Virus record (IMG/VR): IMGVR_UViG_3300042889_000018
Location: 1-20,066 of that record
Direction: 5' to 3' (one strand)
Origin: a virus
Length of the DNA: 20,066 bases
Position 1 is the stretch's first letter; each line of letters opens with the position of its first letter. Of the stretch, positions 11,088 to 17,330 are shown piece by piece. The position numbers and the translations under genes were made by a program. The notes beneath the pieces are model-generated. The model had not been told where the DNA came from. It was given only the letters and a program-made list of their open reading frames with translations, and did no database searches.

Positions 11088-14072
11088 ATGACAATATCTT
11101 CAACTACAGTTAGAAACAGTTATAGTGGTGATAACTCTACAACTACATTCTCATACACATTCAAGATATTCGCAGATTCAGATATTCAAGTCATCATTCG
11201 TTCTACTGATGGAACTGAAACAATCAAGACTATTACAACTCACTATACTGTAACAGGTGCTGGTGCATCAGGTGGTGGATCAGTTATATTCACATCAGGT
11301 AATATTCCAACATCAACTCAGACAGTTGTATTAAGACGTAACATTCCACAAACACAAGCAATAGATTATATCGCTAACGATCCATTCCCTGCTGAATCTC
11401 ATGAAGAAGGTTTAGACAGAGCAACAATGGCAATTCAACAGTTGCAAGAAGAAGTAACAAGATCTTTAAAATTATCTAAAACAAATACAATGACATCTAC
11501 AGAGTTTACTGTGGGTGCATCTGCTCGTGCTAATAAAATTCTAGCATTTGATACTAATGGTGAAATATCAGTTACACAAGAGCTTGGAACTAATAGAGGT
11601 TCATGGAGTTCTGGTGTTACTTTTAATGCTAGGGATATTGTAAAAGATTCATCTAACAATAACGTATATCTTTGTAACACAACTCACACATCTACAGGTT
11701 CTACTCCTATCAGTTCTAATACTGATGTAGCTAAATGGGATTTAATTGTTGATGCACAATCTGCTACAAACTCAGCTAATGCAGCTGCTAACTCTGCATC
11801 TAACAGTTCTAATTTTGCTAACAACTCATCTAACAGTGCCAATACATCTGCTAATCATTCTGCAAATAGTTCTAATTTTGCAAACAATGCTTCAAATTCT
11901 GCTAACACTGCATCAACTTATTTAGCTGATGTAAGTGCTAATGCTAATGCTTCTGCAAATTCTGCTAGCAATGCTTCTAACTTTGCTAATAATTCTAGTA
12001 ACAGTGCAAACTCAGCATCAAATCATTCTAGTAACTCAAGTAATTTTGCAAACAATTCTAGTAATAGTGCTAACACATCAGCTAACCACGCATCAAATTC
12101 TAGCAACTTTGCTAACAATAGTTCTAATAGTGCGAATGCTTCTAGTAATCATTCTGCCAATTCATCTAACTTTGCAAACAACAGTTCAAATCATGCGGCA
12201 AACAGTTCAAACTTTGCCAATGCTTCTAGCAATCATGCAAGTAATTCATCTAATCATTCTGCTAACTCTAGCAACTTCGCTAATACATCTAGCAATCATG
12301 CAGCTAACTCATCAAACTTTGCTAATAATTCTAGTAACTTTGCTAACACTGCTAGTAATGCAGCTAATGCGGCAAACAGTGCAAGAGATGCAGCTCTAGC
12401 TGCGGCTGATAACTTTGATGATGTTTATTTAGGTTCTAAAACTGCAGATCCAACTTTAGATAATGATGGTGATGCTTTAACAGCAGGAGATTTATATTAC
12501 AATTCAGTAGGTACTGTTTTAAAATATTACACAGGTTCTGCTTGGGTATCAATTACTTCAGGTGGTATTACAGATTTAGTACAAGACACAACTCCACAAC
12601 TTGGTGGTATGTTAGATGTCAATGGACAATCTATCGGTGATGGTACATTAGAATTAGTTAAATTTGCAGAAACAGCTAGTGCGGTTAATGAAATAACTGT
12701 AACAAATTCTGCTACAGGTACTGCACCAGAAATAGCAGCTACTGGAGATGATACAAATATTGATCTTAAACTTACTCCAAAAGGTACTGGTAAATTAAAT
12801 TTAGATGGAATTAAATTCCCTAATGCTGATGGTTCTGCTGGACAGGCATTAACAACTGATGGTTCTGGTGTATTATCTTTTAGTACAATTTCTGCAGATG
12901 GAACTGCTGATTGGGACACATCTGTTAAAACAACAGGATTTACTGCTACTGCTAATAAAGGATATTTCTGTAATACAACTTCTTCTGCATTTACAGTAAC
13001 ATTACCTGCAACTCCAAGTGCTGGAGATGAGGTTATAATTTTAGATTATGCAGGAACTTTTGATACAAATAAATTAACAATTAATCCAAATGGTAATAAA
13101 ATAGAAGGTTCAACAGATAATGTACTTTTAGGTGGTGAAAGAGAAGGTGCAAGATTAGTTTATATAGATTCAACACAAGGTTGGTTAGCTTATTCAGGAA
13201 TTAATGAAGGAACAGATGCTTTATCACCAACAAGCTACTCAATAGATTTTTTAGTAATAGGTGGTGGAGGAGGAGGAGGTGGACACTATTACGCAGGAGG
13301 TGGAGGTGCTGGAGGATATAGAACATCAACTCAAACAGCCACAATAGGAAATACAATTACAGTAACAGTTGGAGATGGTGGTGCTGCTCGTATAAATGTA
13401 CTTAATACAGCAGGTAATAGTGGTTCAAATTCTTCAATATCAGGTTCAGGATTAACAACAATTACTTCTGCTGGCGGAGGTGGAGGCGGAGGAGGTGGTG
13501 GAACACCAAATCAAATTGGTCTTGCAGGAGGTTCAGGAGGAGGTGCTTCTGGATATGATGATTCTGGTACACAAGGTGGTGCTGGAAATACTCCAAGCAC
13601 ATCACCATCACAAGGTAATAATGGTGGTGGAAATAGTGTTGTTGGACAATACGGAGCAGGAGGAGGAGGAGGAGCAGGTGCAGTTGGAGTAACAGCTACT
13701 GGTGATAGTGGGGCAGCTGGTGGAAATGGAACTGCTTCTTCAATAACAGGTTCTTCAGTAACTAGAGCTGGTGGGGGTGGAGGTGGATCTTATAGTGGCA
13801 GTGCTGGTCCAGGCGGAACTGGTGGTGGTGGAACTGGTGGTACTAGTAATCTTAATGGAACAAATGGAACTGCTAATACTGGAAGCGGTGGTGGTGGTGC
13901 TAGTGGTTATCTTTCAAATGCTTTTAATAGTGGAGCTGGTGGTAAAGGAGTTGTTATATTAAGTGTACCAACTGCTTTATATTCAAACACTTCAACAGGT
14001 TCGCCTACAGTTACAACATCTGGTAGTAATACAATTTTACAATTTAATGGAGATGGGAGTTATACAGTATAA
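11088..14072 (+). CDS. Tail fibre with T7-type anchor, heptad shaft and glycine-rich tip, 994 aa
   Basis: Residues 1-135 match the T7 tail-fibre N-terminal domain: a TTVRNSYSGDNSTTTFSYTF start, YTVTGAG, VVLRRNIPQTQAIDYI and a following helix EEGLDRATMAIQQLQEEVTR. This domain binds the tail. Residues 239-420 are 26 uninterrupted heptads based on NSSNFAN, probably a trimeric shaft. About 448-485 holds DPTLDNDGDALTAGDLYYN, a small domain common in marine phage fibres. About 500-715 is Thr/Gly-rich beta structure, including TVTLPATPSAGDEVIILD. Residues 725-954 are extremely glycine-rich, like polyglycine-sandwich adhesins that recognise host receptors. Ribosome site AAAGGAA lies just upstream. 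It overlaps the next gene by one base (TAATG). Receptor and host range cannot be read from sequence. Confidence 0.88.
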   Translation: MTISSTTVRNSYSGDNSTTTFSYTFKIFADSDIQVIIRSTDGTETIKTITTHYTVTGAGASGGGSVIFTSGNIPTSTQTVVLRRNIPQTQAIDYIANDPFPAESHEEGLDRATMAIQQLQEEVTRSLKLSKTNTMTSTEFTVGASARANKILAFDTNGEISVTQELGTNRGSWSSGVTFNARDIVKDSSNNNVYLCNTTHTSTGSTPISSNTDVAKWDLIVDAQSATNSANAAANSASNSSNFANNSSNSANTSANHSANSSNFANNASNSANTASTYLADVSANANASANSASNASNFANNSSNSANSASNHSSNSSNFANNSSNSANTSANHASNSSNFANNSSNSANASSNHSANSSNFANNSSNHAANSSNFANASSNHASNSSNHSANSSNFANTSSNHAANSSNFANNSSNFANTASNAANAANSARDAALAAADNFDDVYLGSKTADPTLDNDGDALTAGDLYYNSVGTVLKYYTGSAWVSITSGGITDLVQDTTPQLGGMLDVNGQSIGDGTLELVKFAETASAVNEITVTNSATGTAPEIAATGDDTNIDLKLTPKGTGKLNLDGIKFPNADGSAGQALTTDGSGVLSFSTISADGTADWDTSVKTTGFTATANKGYFCNTTSSAFTVTLPATPSAGDEVIILDYAGTFDTNKLTINPNGNKIEGSTDNVLLGGEREGARLVYIDSTQGWLAYSGINEGTDALSPTSYSIDFLVIGGGGGGGGHYYAGGGGAGGYRTSTQTATIGNTITVTVGDGGAARINVLNTAGNSGSNSSISGSGLTTITSAGGGGGGGGGGTPNQIGLAGGSGGGASGYDDSGTQGGAGNTPSTSPSQGNNGGGNSVVGQYGAGGGGGAGAVGVTATGDSGAAGGNGTASSITGSSVTRAGGGGGGSYSGSAGPGGTGGGGTGGTSNLNGTNGTANTGSGGGGASGYLSNAFNSGAGGKGVVILSVPTALYSNTSTGSPTVTTSGSNTILQFNGDGSYTV
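11802..12347 (+). repeat. 26 in-frame heptad repeats of the tail-fibre shaft
   Basis: 546 bases encode exactly 26 seven-residue units (fibre residues 239-420) without any insertion or deletion. Nine units are exactly NSSNFAN, and others are variants such as NSSNSAN and TSANHSA. Several copies follow a 21-residue order of three heptads (NSSNFAN, NSSNSAN, then xSxNHxx). At DNA level the nine identical units are all different: Ser uses TCT, TCA, AGT and AGC, and Asn and Ala third positions vary. It is therefore a protein repeat, not a recent DNA repeat. Confidence 0.9.
13260..13950 (+). repeat. Glycine-rich low-complexity region of the tail fibre
   Basis: Runs of GGT/GGA codons encode blocks of up to ten glycines (fibre residues 725-954) separated by short Ala/Ser/Asn/Thr segments. 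The DNA contains GGA/GGT triplet tracts near 13260-13282, 13474-13502 and 13660-13676, which could expand or shrink in steps of three without frameshift. By comparison with glycine-rich phage adhesins, these runs may pack as polyglycine-II helices carrying variable receptor loops. Confidence 0.8.
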
Positions 14073-14482
14073 TGGCTAGTTTTGCTAAAATAGGATTAAA
14101 CAATAAAGTTATAGCAGTTCATTCTGTTGTTAATGAAGTGTTACATGACAGTAATGGAATTGAAAGAGAAGATATTGGTGTAGATTTTTTAACTAAACTA
14201 CATGGCTGGGCTATTTGGAAACAAACATCTTATAATACTAATGGTGGAGTTCATAATAATAATGGAACACCTTTAAGAAAAAATCATGCAGGAATAGGTT
14301 ATACTTATGACGAAACAAGAGATGCTTTCATTCCACCTAAACCTTTTAATTCTTGGATATTAAACGAAAATACTTGTTTATGGGAATCTCCAATACCAAA
14401 ACCAAATAGAGATGGTTTAGAAATAAACCAATATTGGAATTGGAACGAAACTAATCAATCTTGGGATTTGACAACTATATAG
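14072..14482 (+). CDS. Fibre-associated structural protein, marine-phage type, 136 aa
   Basis: The 136-aa protein starts in the TAATG at the end of the fibre gene, so the two are probably made together. It begins MASFAKIGLNNKVIAVHSV and contains WKQTSYNTNGG, GTPLRKNHAGIGYTYD and FIPPKPFNSWILNE, ending with a Trp-rich segment (YWNWNETNQSW). I know this conserved pattern from small proteins next to tail-fibre genes of marine cyanophages and related phages, where it is usually annotated as hypothetical or structural. The many Trp and Tyr residues and no membrane segment suggest a compact beta protein, perhaps capping or decorating a fibre. The function is not established. Confidence 0.72.
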   Translation: MASFAKIGLNNKVIAVHSVVNEVLHDSNGIEREDIGVDFLTKLHGWAIWKQTSYNTNGGVHNNNGTPLRKNHAGIGYTYDETRDAFIPPKPFNSWILNENTCLWESPIPKPNRDGLEINQYWNWNETNQSWDLTTI

Positions 14483-14508: not shown

Positions 14509-15246
14509 ATGAGGGAATATTATTTTTTGTGTAGCTTACCAAGAGCTGGGAACACGCTATTAGGTTCTATATTAAATCAATCTAAAGATATTAGATTAAC
14601 AGCTAATTCAATATTACCTGAGATAATTTATCAATTACATTTAATTAAAAAAGATCAATTATTTACAAATTTTCCAGATCATAAATCTTATAACAATATT
14701 GTTAATAATGTATTTAATAATTATTACCAAGAATGGAATGTAAATAATATTATTACTAGAGGAACATGGGGAACTCCTACAAATTTACAATTATTAAAAT
14801 CAATAATTAAGAAACCTAAATTTATTATTCTTTATAGACCAGTATTAGAATGTCTTGCATCATTTATAAAAATTGAAAAACCAATAGATGTTGAATTAAG
14901 ATGCAATCAACTTTTAAACAAACAAGATGTTATTGGCAAATCATTATGGAGTATAAAGAACATTATCCAAAACAAAGAAGATCATATTATTATTAATTAT
15001 AATGATTTAGTAAACAATACGAATGACACTCTTAAAAAAATATTTAATTACTTAGAAGTTGAATTTGAAAATATAGATATAAACAATATTAAACAATTTT
15101 CTACAAATAATATATCTTATGATGATAATGTATTGCCATTTGATTTGCACACTATAAGAACAAACAAAATAGAATTTAATAAATATAATATTAAAGACTA
15201 TTTACCACTCAACATAATAAAACAATACTCTAACTTAGATATATGA
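14509..15246 (+). CDS. Sulfotransferase-like protein, 245 aa
   Basis: The N-terminus (residues 5-16) reads YFLCSLPRAGNT, which matches the 5'-phosphosulfate-binding loop of PAPS-dependent sulfotransferases. Residues 107-119 (ILYRPVLECLASF) fit the 3'-phosphate site (R-P-x..S helix), and YNDLV at 164-168 is a usual later motif. Such enzymes move a sulfonate group from PAPS to a sugar, lipid, protein or small-molecule hydroxyl or amine. No signal peptide or TM segment, so probably cytoplasmic. A 26-base gap precedes it, with no clear Shine-Dalgarno. Its 3' end overlaps the kinase by 4 bases (ATGA). The base composition is even more AT-rich and Asn-rich than the structural genes, which suggests a separately acquired cassette. 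The acceptor is unknown. Confidence 0.75.
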   Translation: MREYYFLCSLPRAGNTLLGSILNQSKDIRLTANSILPEIIYQLHLIKKDQLFTNFPDHKSYNNIVNNVFNNYYQEWNVNNIITRGTWGTPTNLQLLKSIIKKPKFIILYRPVLECLASFIKIEKPIDVELRCNQLLNKQDVIGKSLWSIKNIIQNKEDHIIINYNDLVNNTNDTLKKIFNYLEVEFENIDINNIKQFSTNNISYDDNVLPFDLHTIRTNKIEFNKYNIKDYLPLNIIKQYSNLDI

Positions 15247-15632
15247 AAATATTAATATTTGGATTACCAGGATCTGGCAAAACTACATTTGCTAAAAAAT
15301 TAGTAGAAGGTAAAAAAATACCTCATTTTAATGCTGATGAAATTAGAAAGCTATTTGAAGATTGGGATTTTACAGATACTGGTAGAAGAAGACAAGCAAA
15401 CAGAATGATGACAATGTGTGATCTTGCAGTTAATCATGTAGTTGTAGATTTTGTTTGTCCCTTTGAATCCTATAGATCTTTCTACGATATGAAGATTTGG
15501 ATGAATACTATTGATAAAGGAAGATTTGAAGATACCAATAAAGTATTTGAGAAACCTAAAAAAGTAAATTTTGAAATAAATAATTTTAATTATAACAACA
15601 TAATAAAGGAGATACATGATAGACTACAATAA
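15243..15632 (+). CDS. APS-kinase-like (CysC-type) P-loop kinase, short form, 129 aa
   Basis: A Walker A loop GLPGSGKTT is at residues 7-15. It is followed by a CysC-like series: FNADEIRK (29-36, in place of the DGDxxR of APS kinase), DFTDTGRRRQANRM (42-55) and DFVCPFESYRSF (69-80, similar to the xxISPFRxxR segment). Residues 86-104 (WMNTIDKGRFEDTNKVFEK) resemble the C-terminal part of marine-phage adenylylsulfate-kinase-like proteins. APS kinase phosphorylates APS to PAPS, the donor for the upstream sulfotransferase, and the ATGA overlap with that gene suits a common pathway. At 129 aa it is much shorter than standard CysC (about 170-200 aa), so the substrate could differ. The gene overlaps the nucleotidyltransferase by 17 bases. 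Confidence 0.66.
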   Translation: MKILIFGLPGSGKTTFAKKLVEGKKIPHFNADEIRKLFEDWDFTDTGRRRQANRMMTMCDLAVNHVVVDFVCPFESYRSFYDMKIWMNTIDKGRFEDTNKVFEKPKKVNFEINNFNYNNIIKEIHDRLQ

Positions 15633-15960
15633 ACCGACAGCACAGATGTTAGGAAGGTGGCAACCATTTCATGCTGGTCATCTAGCTTTGTTTAAAAAGA
15701 TATTAGAAAAAACTGGTCAAGTTATTATTATGGTTAGAGATACACCTAGAGATGAGAGTAATCCTTTTGATTTTAATGATGTTAAAGAAAGAATTGAAAA
15801 AGCATTAATTGATTATAAAGATAAATTTGAAGTTATAAGAGTACCTAACATTACTAATATTTGTTATGGTAGAGGAGTTGGTTATAAGATTGAAGAAATT
15901 GTTTTACCAAAAGAAATACAAGAAATATCAGCAACTAAAATAAGAGAAAATTTAAAATGA
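15616..15960 (+). CDS. Small HxGH nucleotidyltransferase, 114 aa
   Basis: The protein has GRWQPFHAGH at residues 13-22, the HxGH motif of the cytidylyltransferase/adenylyltransferase fold, and the matching C-terminal ISATKIR (104-110), equivalent to the ISSTxxR signature. Between them are IMVRDTPRDE and PNITNICYGRGVGYKIEEI. These enzymes join a nucleotide to a phosphate or similar group with release of pyrophosphate. True ATP sulfurylases share this fold but are about 400 aa, so an APS-forming role here is a hypothesis from its kinase and sulfotransferase neighbours; NMN- or pantetheine-phosphate-type or sugar substrates are alternatives. A good ribosome site, AAAGGAGA (15605-15612), lies inside the kinase gene. 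Its end overlaps the oxygenase by 4 bases. Confidence 0.72.
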   Translation: MIDYNKPTAQMLGRWQPFHAGHLALFKKILEKTGQVIIMVRDTPRDESNPFDFNDVKERIEKALIDYKDKFEVIRVPNITNICYGRGVGYKIEEIVLPKEIQEISATKIRENLK

Positions 15961-16574
15961 TTGAATCTAATATCAATGGTATATTCCCAACTCCTATTTA
16001 CATATCTAAACTAGATAGAAAATTAACACCATTAGAATTAAAGTTTGTAGATAAGAATAAAAAAGATTTCTATAAAAATGATGGCAACATTACATCAAAC
16101 AATAATTATATTCTTAATGAAAAGCCTTTTGCTAATATTAAAAAAGAATTAGATTTAAGAGTGCAAGATTATTTTGATAAAGTTATTTCTCCAGCTAATA
16201 ATATTACACCTTATATTACTCAGTCTTGGTTAAACTACACTGAAACAAATCAATATCATCATAAACATGCACATCCAAATTCATTAGTATCAGGAGTGTT
16301 TTATATTAACTGCCATGAAGAACATGATAAGATTAAATTCTTTAATGACAGATACCAAACAATTAAACTAGAAATCAAAGATTGGAATATTTGGAACTCA
16401 GAATCTTGGTGGTTTTCTGTTAAGACTGGAGATATAATACTATTTCCTTCTTCATTGACGCACATGGTAGAAACTAAGCAAGGAGATAACACTAGAATTA
16501 GTTTAGCTTTTAATGTCTTTATAAAAGGAACAGTTGGTAAAGTTAAAGAATTAACTGAACTCCATTTATCTTAA
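15957..16574 (+). CDS. 2OG-Fe(II) oxygenase-like protein, 205 aa
   Basis: The core fits the 2OG-Fe(II) oxygenase family found often in marine phages. Residues 98-117 hold NQYHHKHAHPNSLVSGVFYI, with candidate iron ligands H104/H106. Residues 159-171 (DIILFPSSLTHMV) give the distal ligand H169, and R180 in NTRISLAFN would bind the 2-oxoglutarate carboxylate. These are the typical distances of the family. Such enzymes hydroxylate amino acids, sugars, lipids or bases. The N-terminus IFPTPIYISKL is also typical. It is linked to the nucleotidyltransferase by an ATGA overlap and is directly followed by the glycosyltransferase, so the five genes probably form one transcription unit. Substrate unknown. 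Confidence 0.8.
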   Translation: MIESNINGIFPTPIYISKLDRKLTPLELKFVDKNKKDFYKNDGNITSNNNYILNEKPFANIKKELDLRVQDYFDKVISPANNITPYITQSWLNYTETNQYHHKHAHPNSLVSGVFYINCHEEHDKIKFFNDRYQTIKLEIKDWNIWNSESWWFSVKTGDIILFPSSLTHMVETKQGDNTRISLAFNVFIKGTVGKVKELTELHLS

Positions 16575-17330
16575 ATGAATATACTAATAGCTATACCATG
16601 TTATGGTGGCAACATCAGTAATCTAACATTTCATTCACTATTCAATATCATTAAACCTTTAAATGATATGGGACATAATCTTAGGATTGAAACACTACCC
16701 ACTGAATCTTTAATCAATCGTGCTAGAAATAAGTTTGTAACTAAGTTCTTAGATAATAAAGAATTTAATGGTACGCATCTTTTATTCATTGATGCTGACA
16801 TTGGCTTCACATTACAGAATCTTTTAAGAGTTATAGACTTTAATAAAGAAGTTGTTACCTGCACCTATCCTGTAAAAGGATTCTATTGGCAGCAATTACT
16901 AGATCGTATCAAAGAGAATACAGACATAGATGAGCAAACAATGCGTGATTATCTTTTGCAGTTCAATGTTAATCTATATCCTAACACAGAATTTAAACAG
17001 GGATTCGCAAGGGTAAAAGAAAGTGCTACAGGTTTCATGATGATTAAACGTGAGGTGTTTACTACTATCATGGATAAAAATCCTCAGCTTAAATATAAAC
17101 CAGATCTAAGAACAGGAATAGAAGGATCAGATAATGCTTATGATTTTTTCCCTGTTGGAATCTATAAAGAGAAAGATGGTGTAAATAGATTCTTATCTGA
17201 AGACTATTACTTCTGTAGATTAGCTGAAGAGTGTGGATTTGAGATCTGGACAGATCTATCTACACCAATAACACACTTGGGTTCTACCGAGTATCATGGT
17301 ATGTTTATGACACAACTAAACAAGAAATAA
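16575..17330 (+). CDS. GT-A type glycosyltransferase-like protein, 251 aa
   Basis: Starts directly after the oxygenase stop. The N-terminus MNILIAIPCYGG is the first strand of a GT-A nucleotide-sugar-binding fold. LLFIDADIGF holds a DxD-type motif, D73-A-D75, that would hold the metal and nucleotide sugar. Further matching parts are a TGFMMIKREVF segment (152-162), LSEDYYFCRLAEECGFEIW (207-225), with a probable catalytic acid in the ED pair, and ITHLG with H234. This is the common order in phage and bacterial GT2-like enzymes of about 250 aa. It has no TM segment. It could glycosylate DNA, virion protein or host surface glycans. Its place behind a sulfotransferase and oxygenase suggests modification of the same kind of acceptor, but this is inference. 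Confidence 0.78.
   Translation: MNILIAIPCYGGNISNLTFHSLFNIIKPLNDMGHNLRIETLPTESLINRARNKFVTKFLDNKEFNGTHLLFIDADIGFTLQNLLRVIDFNKEVVTCTYPVKGFYWQQLLDRIKENTDIDEQTMRDYLLQFNVNLYPNTEFKQGFARVKESATGFMMIKREVFTTIMDKNPQLKYKPDLRTGIEGSDNAYDFFPVGIYKEKDGVNRFLSEDYYFCRLAEECGFEIWTDLSTPITHLGSTEYHGMFMTQLNKK

Follow-up and report, generated by a model that had tools for sequence, protein, structure and literature searches.

In this study, we analysed a five-gene cassette (positions 14509-17330, all genes on the + strand) in 20,066 nt of viral DNA, the IMG/VR record IMGVR_UViG_3300042889_000018, which is referred to in full as the window. The first three genes encode a sulfotransferase (ST), a P-loop kinase (KIN) and an HxGH nucleotidyltransferase (NTR), and we propose, with a probability of about 0.64, that they form a compact operon for sulfate activation and sulfotransfer, in which NTR would be the ATP sulfurylase, KIN the adenosine 5'-phosphosulfate (APS) kinase and ST an enzyme dependent on 3'-phosphoadenosine 5'-phosphosulfate (PAPS). 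In the catalytic steps that we infer, NTR, a miniature ATP sulfurylase of nicotinamide mononucleotide (NMN) adenylyltransferase (NMNAT) or phosphopantetheine adenylyltransferase (PPAT) ancestry, would reversibly convert ATP and sulfate to APS and pyrophosphate (PPi), KIN would convert APS and ATP to PAPS and ADP and so pull the unfavourable NTR step forward, and ST would transfer the sulfonate group from PAPS to an acceptor. The pull exerted by KIN on the forward reaction would also explain why KIN and NTR are frequently fused. The same route, from ATP and sulfate through APS and PAPS to a sulfonated product, had been suggested in an initial annotation of this DNA; it is strengthened here by conserved ST-KIN-NTR and KIN-NTR arrangements and by a link to APS in SAR11 bacteria, whereas the use of sulfate by NTR is still a step that we infer.

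Gene order is conserved well beyond the window. Among 80 IMG/VR viral loci retrieved with NTR (the first set; L-numbers denote retrieved loci and G-numbers genomes in this analysis), KIN is present in 79. In the 70 loci that reach 700 bases or more upstream of KIN and could be tested for the presence of ST, this gene lies directly before KIN in 52, which are related to each other and are therefore not 52 independent cases, and six more loci have ST within approximately 3 kb. The most diverged of these ST proteins show about 32-40% identity to the window ST, and since the range extends down to about 32%, the ST-KIN-NTR order has persisted through considerable divergence; the arrangement is well above chance. 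The initial annotation had named a lack of co-occurrence in related phages as a point that would speak against a pathway, and these counts point the other way. In a second set of 160 viral loci, retrieved with distant relatives, KIN and NTR occur together in 139, of which 63 encode them as one fused open reading frame (ORF) with KIN first; ST was found in 22. The window KIN corresponds to one half of a single phage protein family, phrog_10255, and the window NTR to the other. On L117, a contig of a Euryarchaeota metagenome-assembled genome, a fused KIN-NTR gene is immediately preceded by a Sulfotransfer_1 gene (2.8e-22). These arrangements bear on the idea that ST merely draws on host PAPS and that its neighbours are unrelated accessory genes, which cluster in a hypervariable slot between the fibre and lysis genes. 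In agreement with this idea, the slot is filled by different genes in the cultured phages HTVC010P, HTVC035P and Lederberg EXVC029P. However, it accounts neither for an ST-KIN-NTR order that recurs in the separate second set and is kept by such diverged ST proteins, nor for the frequent KIN-NTR fusions, and we regard it as highly improbable.

ST (14509..15246, + strand, 245 aa) matches the Pfam families Sulfotransfer_3 (PF13469; 6.9e-10, 40 bits with a cut-off of 27) and Sulfotransfer_1 (PF00685; 1.9e-6). Both PAPS motifs are kept, namely the 5'-phosphosulfate-binding loop (5'-PSB) SLPRAGNT (14533-14556, + strand) and the 3'-phosphate-binding motif (3'-PB) R110...S118 (14836-14862, + strand), and 28 diverse homologues all have R12, G14, N15, R110 and S118. 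When the ST profile was compared with solved structures, CurM (3e-10) and protein-tyrosine sulfotransferase 1 (5.5e-7) were among the matches. The previous description of this protein as sulfotransferase-like, with an SLPRAGNT loop, is thus confirmed by a family cut-off and by the PAPS motifs, and the same can be said for the description of the next protein as a CysC-like P-loop kinase, which agrees with the Pfam APS_kinase cut-off and with the aligned CysC residues. KIN (15243..15632, + strand, 129 aa) scores 23.1 bits against APS_kinase (PF01583; cut-off 21.1), although its top Pfam match is the generic AAA_33 family, and APS_kinase is matched by 54 of the 55 members of the KIN family, at best with 3.6e-19. 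With a profile built from 55 diverse KIN sequences, the top single-domain relatives of solved structure are APS kinases (2yvu with 5.8e-15, followed by 3cr7, 1d6j and PAPSS1); adenylate kinase 9 also ranks high, as a long multi-domain chain with summed P-loops. Because the score of 21.4 bits against the NCBIfam equivalog apsK (TIGR00455) is under the cut-off of 138.7, we call the protein APS-kinase-like and not CysC. In an alignment of KIN with two genuine CysC domains, taken from genomes of the order Pelagibacterales, the Walker A motif (GLPGSGKT, 15261-15284, + strand), R35, F43, R48, P73, R78 and P105 are kept. K13, R35, F43 and R48 are invariant, and the last three of these, which fall in a region reaching to Q51 (15345-15395, + strand), correspond to the Arg of DNxR, the Phe of GFS and the Arg of DRxEN, residues that contact APS in CysC. 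As judged from these alignments, KIN is a compact, short-lid member of the APS-kinase superfamily.

The third protein, NTR (15616..15960, + strand, 114 aa), matches the Pfam family CTP_transf_like (5.1e-8) and contains the motifs GRWQPFHAGH (15652-15681), YGRGVGYKIEEI (15865-15900) and ISATKIR (15925-15945), all on the + strand. Residues G13, R14, Q16, P17, H19, G21, H22, L25, R41, G85, R86, V88, G89, S105, A106 and R110 are invariant in 56 homologues, and the hallmark of the family is an invariant half, YGR[DG]VGY...ISATKIR. An AlphaFold2 model based on 56 diverse sequences reached a pLDDT of 93.3, as compared to 59.7 with 13 similar sequences. With this model, Foldseek found the NMN adenylyltransferase 1m8j (1.5e-4), and VIA gave Z scores of 11-12 to NMNAT and PPAT alike, with a phosphopantetheine adenylyltransferase at 12. 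No ATP sulfurylase was found near the top of the Foldseek and VIA lists, where a missing match excludes nothing. On the basis of the modelled fold, NTR is therefore an adenylyl-type nucleotidyltransferase with the NMNAT/PPAT fold, which refines its earlier designation as a small HxGH nucleotidyltransferase, and it forms a distinct family. NTR shares with NadM/NadR and CoaD (PPAT) the Rossmann-like adenylyltransferase fold and the GRxQPxHxGH and ISxTxxR motifs; however, these enzymes have about 155-180 aa, and NTR differs from them by its reduced C-terminal half, by the invariant YGR[DG]VGY and by its sulfur contexts in SAR11. Its scores against NMNAT equivalogs are well under the respective cut-offs (32.4 bits against TIGR01527, cut-off 181.2; 37.2 bits against PRK05379, cut-off about 350-450). 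The ATP-sulfurylase Pfam family is matched weakly by three of the 56 NTR homologues (best 0.0038), and the invariant GR[DG]VG, which has a corresponding position in the order of the sequence, resembles the GRDHAG of the ATP sulfurylase Sat.

A second line of evidence comes from bacterial chromosomes. The host group of the phage is very probably SAR11, to which the most abundant bacterium of the ocean belongs, and the phage of the HTVC010P type, because its tail tubular protein B shows 74-75% identity to those of the Pelagibacter phages HTVC035P and HTVC010P, both of which were grown on the SAR11 strain HTCC1062. When one genome per species was scanned with NTR and the best 80 loci were taken, these were mainly from SAR11, and NTR was found in none of 298 sampled genomes of other Pseudomonadota, which speaks against NTR as a general housekeeping gene. 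In a first SAR11 arrangement, seen at many loci, NTR is the gene just ahead of aprM-aprB-aprA (APS reductase), and a TauE-like gene and Xsc are found on the downstream side; AprB, AprA and Xsc of the SAR11 NTR loci exceed their own NCBIfam cut-offs. In a second arrangement, aprM-aprB-aprA and a small gene are followed by a convergent NTR-KIN pair, with about 370 bases between the aprA and NTR-KIN matches. Within a sample of 148 Pelagibacterales genomes, KIN is present in none of the eight genomes with the first arrangement and in all 17 with the second. The NTRs of the second arrangement cluster with those of T4-like phages (support 100/96), and a single SAR11 clade of NTRs was rejected in a tree test made without L385 (p-AU 2.7e-4). 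NTR has therefore probably come to lie beside APS reductase on more than one occasion, and the occurrence of two NTR lineages beside this enzyme argues for function over hitch-hiking. Since APS is shared by a CysC-like kinase and APS reductase, and KIN is absent from one of the arrangements, APS is the metabolite common to the NTR contexts. In the 148 genomes, NTR was found in 116, aprA in 118, both in 105 and canonical Sat (PF01747) in seven; the association between NTR and aprA has a Fisher P of 1.4e-8, a value that ignores phylogeny and genome incompleteness. Beside aprMBA, NTR might run in reverse after sulfite oxidation and form ATP and sulfate from APS and PPi.

Several further features were seen at the SAR11 loci. 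In both arrangements, aprA is followed by a gene for a conserved small protein of approximately 116-118 aa without an NCBIfam match (L119:4583-4936, L379:4501-4851 and L380:7496-7843). The aprMBA block is gone from L383 and L158, where NTR still lies beside the TauE-like gene. In a third context (L122-L189, for example L165, L134 and L141), KIN-NTR is found among genes for DddP-like M24, Rieske, 2-oxoglutarate (2OG) oxygenase, carnitine-dehydrogenase-like and enoyl-CoA hydratase proteins, a setting that is explained poorly by sulfate activation and by the rival readings alike.

A number of observations weigh against a role in sulfate activation. In KIN, the DRxEN of CysC reads GRxRQ, with Q51 in place of the usual Asn, and the CysC lid DPKGLYKKARxGxIKN is deleted in all aligned KIN sequences. 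QxRNPxH is the sulfate motif of Sat; NTR has GRWQPFH in its place, so that HxxGH is kept and the Q and R of QxRNP are absent, and no match to the Sat family (PF01747) was obtained for the window NTR in the Pfam search. The N-terminal half of NTR is nearest to NMN adenylyltransferases of the NadM type (1f9a, 1.3e-11). Among the SAR11 genomes, 13 have aprA and no NTR and 11 have NTR and no aprA, and in one of them (G042, locus L383) no aprA or KIN was detected and NTR is found beside a TauE-like gene. In other phage lineages, 27 of 28 KIN-NTR records, several of them longer than 100 kb and many of them fragments, contain no Sulfotransfer_3 match, and neither a Sulfotransfer_1 match over the cut-off nor PAPS_reduct was found in any of the 28; the idea that a PAPS reductase consumes the PAPS of phages lacking ST was therefore rejected. 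As many KIN-NTR phages have no recognizable sulfotransferase, the pair serves a purpose for which a phage sulfotransferase is not always required and which goes beyond phage sulfation. Lastly, a NADAR-domain gene overlaps with the KIN-NTR fusion of Stenotrophomonas phage Bhz60 (L108:5172-6348), not far from an annotated cysteine dioxygenase gene, and this NADAR neighbour in one phage hints at NAD chemistry.

Some of these observations would be accounted for if KIN-NTR were a NAD salvage system similar to NadR or NARP2, in which KIN phosphorylates nicotinamide riboside, NTR adenylates NMN and NAD+ is restored in the infected cell against NAD-depleting defences, with the adjacency of ST being incidental. 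The NadM-like half of NTR, the NADAR neighbour and the wide occurrence of KIN-NTR in phages without a sulfotransferase are consistent with such a role, as is a weak match of KIN to AAA_28 (0.0019). However, KIN is specifically APS-kinase-like throughout its family, NadR is not among the solved matches of the KIN profile at 1e-3, and NTR, far under the NMNAT cut-off, is also much shorter between its N-terminal half and ISATKIR, the region where NMNATs bind NMN. Salvage would moreover leave unexplained the two NTR lineages beside aprMBA, one of them without KIN, as well as the ST-KIN-NTR order, and we consider it unlikely. Slightly less unlikely, though still doubtful, is the formation of a PAPS-like donor of another group, in which the substrate adenylated by NTR would be a small acid or a compound of phosphate, KIN would add the 3'-phosphate and the ST-fold enzyme would transfer the group. 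The phosphoramidate pathway of Campylobacter, in which a CysC homologue 3'-phosphorylates a nucleotide diphosphoramidate, is a precedent in kind. This alternative would be in keeping with an NTR devoid of the known sulfate motif, with KIN-NTR pairs found without sulfotransferases and with a KIN whose missing lid and Q for N substitution could allow a different 5' substituent; on the other hand, the PAPS motifs of ST are ordinary, and in SAR11 the neighbourhood of aprMBA is an indication of APS itself.

If sulfate activation by these proteins is correct, it can be extended to the host. We consider it somewhat better than an even chance that NTR represents a novel family of miniature ATP sulfurylases with an origin in the NMNAT/PPAT fold separate from that of Sat and CysDN, that it catalyses the final step of SAR11 sulfite oxidation (taurine to sulfate), for which the enzyme has been missing, and is exchanged between pelagiphages and their hosts, and that together with KIN it makes up a PAPS synthetase of approximately 250 aa which feeds the phage ST. 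It has been reported that Candidatus Pelagibacter ubique has AprBA and lacks cysDNCHIJ and sat according to the text, while Table 3 of the same study lists cysC and cysQ in several strains (PMC5069961), and that ATP sulfurylase is missing from most SAR11 (PMC10356861). With AprBA but no ATP sulfurylase described, the fate of the APS made by SAR11 was open, and a 114-aa candidate beside aprMBA makes this question testable with one purified protein. The initial annotation had called the pathway striking for an AT-rich marine host, where sulfate assimilation is often missing. The host group is not without such genes, however: chromosomal copies of KIN and NTR are common in SAR11, though canonical sat and cysDN are rare or missing.

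The proposed pair resembles the PAPS synthetases of animals, fungi and bacteria (PAPSS, Sat-CysC) in that a kinase and a nucleotidyltransferase are fused or adjacent, with the domain order of the animal enzyme, and in that KIN is homologous to APS kinase. In contrast to these enzymes of about 620 aa, KIN lacks the lid insert, and NTR has no family-level homology to the sulfurylase half and is without its PUA-like domain and QxRNP, and reads GR[DG]VG where the sequence order would place GRDHAG; if true, this would be a non-homologous solution to sulfate activation. The phrog_10255 protein of Stenotrophomonas phages, previously annotated as a kinase only, is a fused KIN-NTR, whereas the window has split genes with ST upstream. 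Phage sulfotransferase genes have been reported and their function called unclear (PMC10580990), and phage genes for PAPS reductase and APS kinase have also been described (PMC10434257; PMC7940616). Compared with such sulfur-named accessory genes, CysH (PAPS reductase) or a lone sulfotransferase, the window would have donor-making enzymes accompanying the sulfotransferase, so that phages could bring their own sulfonate donor pathway, where the literature we found gave isolated sulfotransferase, kinase or reductase genes only. No published report of a phage unit for PAPS synthesis plus sulfotransfer, or of NTR as a sulfurylase, was found in a search that mostly did not cover subscription journals, and prior work is possible.

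Gene neighbourhoods in other phage groups were also recorded. In T4-like marine phages (L296-L335 and L388-L465), KIN, a DUF2061 membrane protein and NTR are encoded in this order between sigma-like and peptide deformylase/gp47/gp46-like genes. DUF2061 was considered as a marker of sulfate activation and rejected, as 14 of 80 phage DUF2061 loci are without KIN-NTR and plasmid matches are unannotated; in other Pseudomonadota, twenty-five 3-kb regions surrounding DUF2061 were searched for motifs of CysC, CysD, CysN and Sat, and none was found. Pairs of tandem RSGST proteins precede the fused KIN-NTR gene in L193-L205 (approximately 2.85-4.55 kb); two of these proteins have no Pfam match and the group has no match among solved structures. 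We do not claim them as sulfotransferases, and they are possibly divergent transferases.

With regard to the cassette as a whole, its five ORFs (14509-15246, 15243-15632, 15616-15960, 15957-16574 and 16575-17330) overlap by 4, 17 and 4 bases and then abut with a 0-base gap, in line with the overlapping or adjacent genes noted before, and such co-directional genes suggest one operon. The position right behind the tail-fibre genes is also as first described: a 994-aa fibre protein (11088-14072), which has an extended tract of SSNFANNSSNSAN-like repeats and is rich in glycine towards the C-terminus, is followed by a 136-aa protein (14072-14482) and then by ST. In related loci, two to three tandem copies of the module of tail fibre and 136-aa protein lie ahead of ST (L082 1-4932, L063 87-2797 and L016 2144-4866), which suggests fibre switching or duplication. 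The cassette is an accessory insertion in a variable slot, since the slot differs in cultured relatives and neither KIN nor a close NTR was found at tblastn sensitivity in the cultured marine phages of the collection searched; a DNA-level search of cultured phages with the cassette likewise gave no match. With KIN, tblastn against cultured phages found only fused relatives, in five phages of Stenotrophomonas, Xanthomonas and Clavibacter, and with NTR the same fused relatives and more distant NMNAT-type genes.

The last two genes of the cassette encode a 2OG-Fe(II) oxygenase and a putative glycosyltransferase, and their action on a target shared with ST, as envisaged in the initial annotation, is conjectural. 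The oxygenase (15957..16574, + strand, 205 aa) is of the TIGR02466 type, with 76 bits over a cut-off of 62.5, and matches 2OG-FeII_Oxy_5 (PF13759; 6e-22) and phrog_81 (1e-42), so that its original assignment stands. It is found directly 3' of NTR in close relatives (for example L002, L016, L061 and L063). For the 251-aa product of the last gene (16575..17330, + strand), a GT-A glycosyltransferase had been suggested, and here the motifs agree while a family match is wanting: FIDADIGF is present and D73, D75, E209 and D210 are invariant in 14 homologues, but the sole match of the window protein is phrog_1574 (1e-38), a family of unknown function, with no Pfam match and no solved relative by sequence search, and four of the 14 homologues match Anp1 weakly (best 4.8e-4). 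This GT-A-like candidate is found near the cassette in the closest relatives only, and both genes are looser associates of the cassette, which follow it in a subset of loci.

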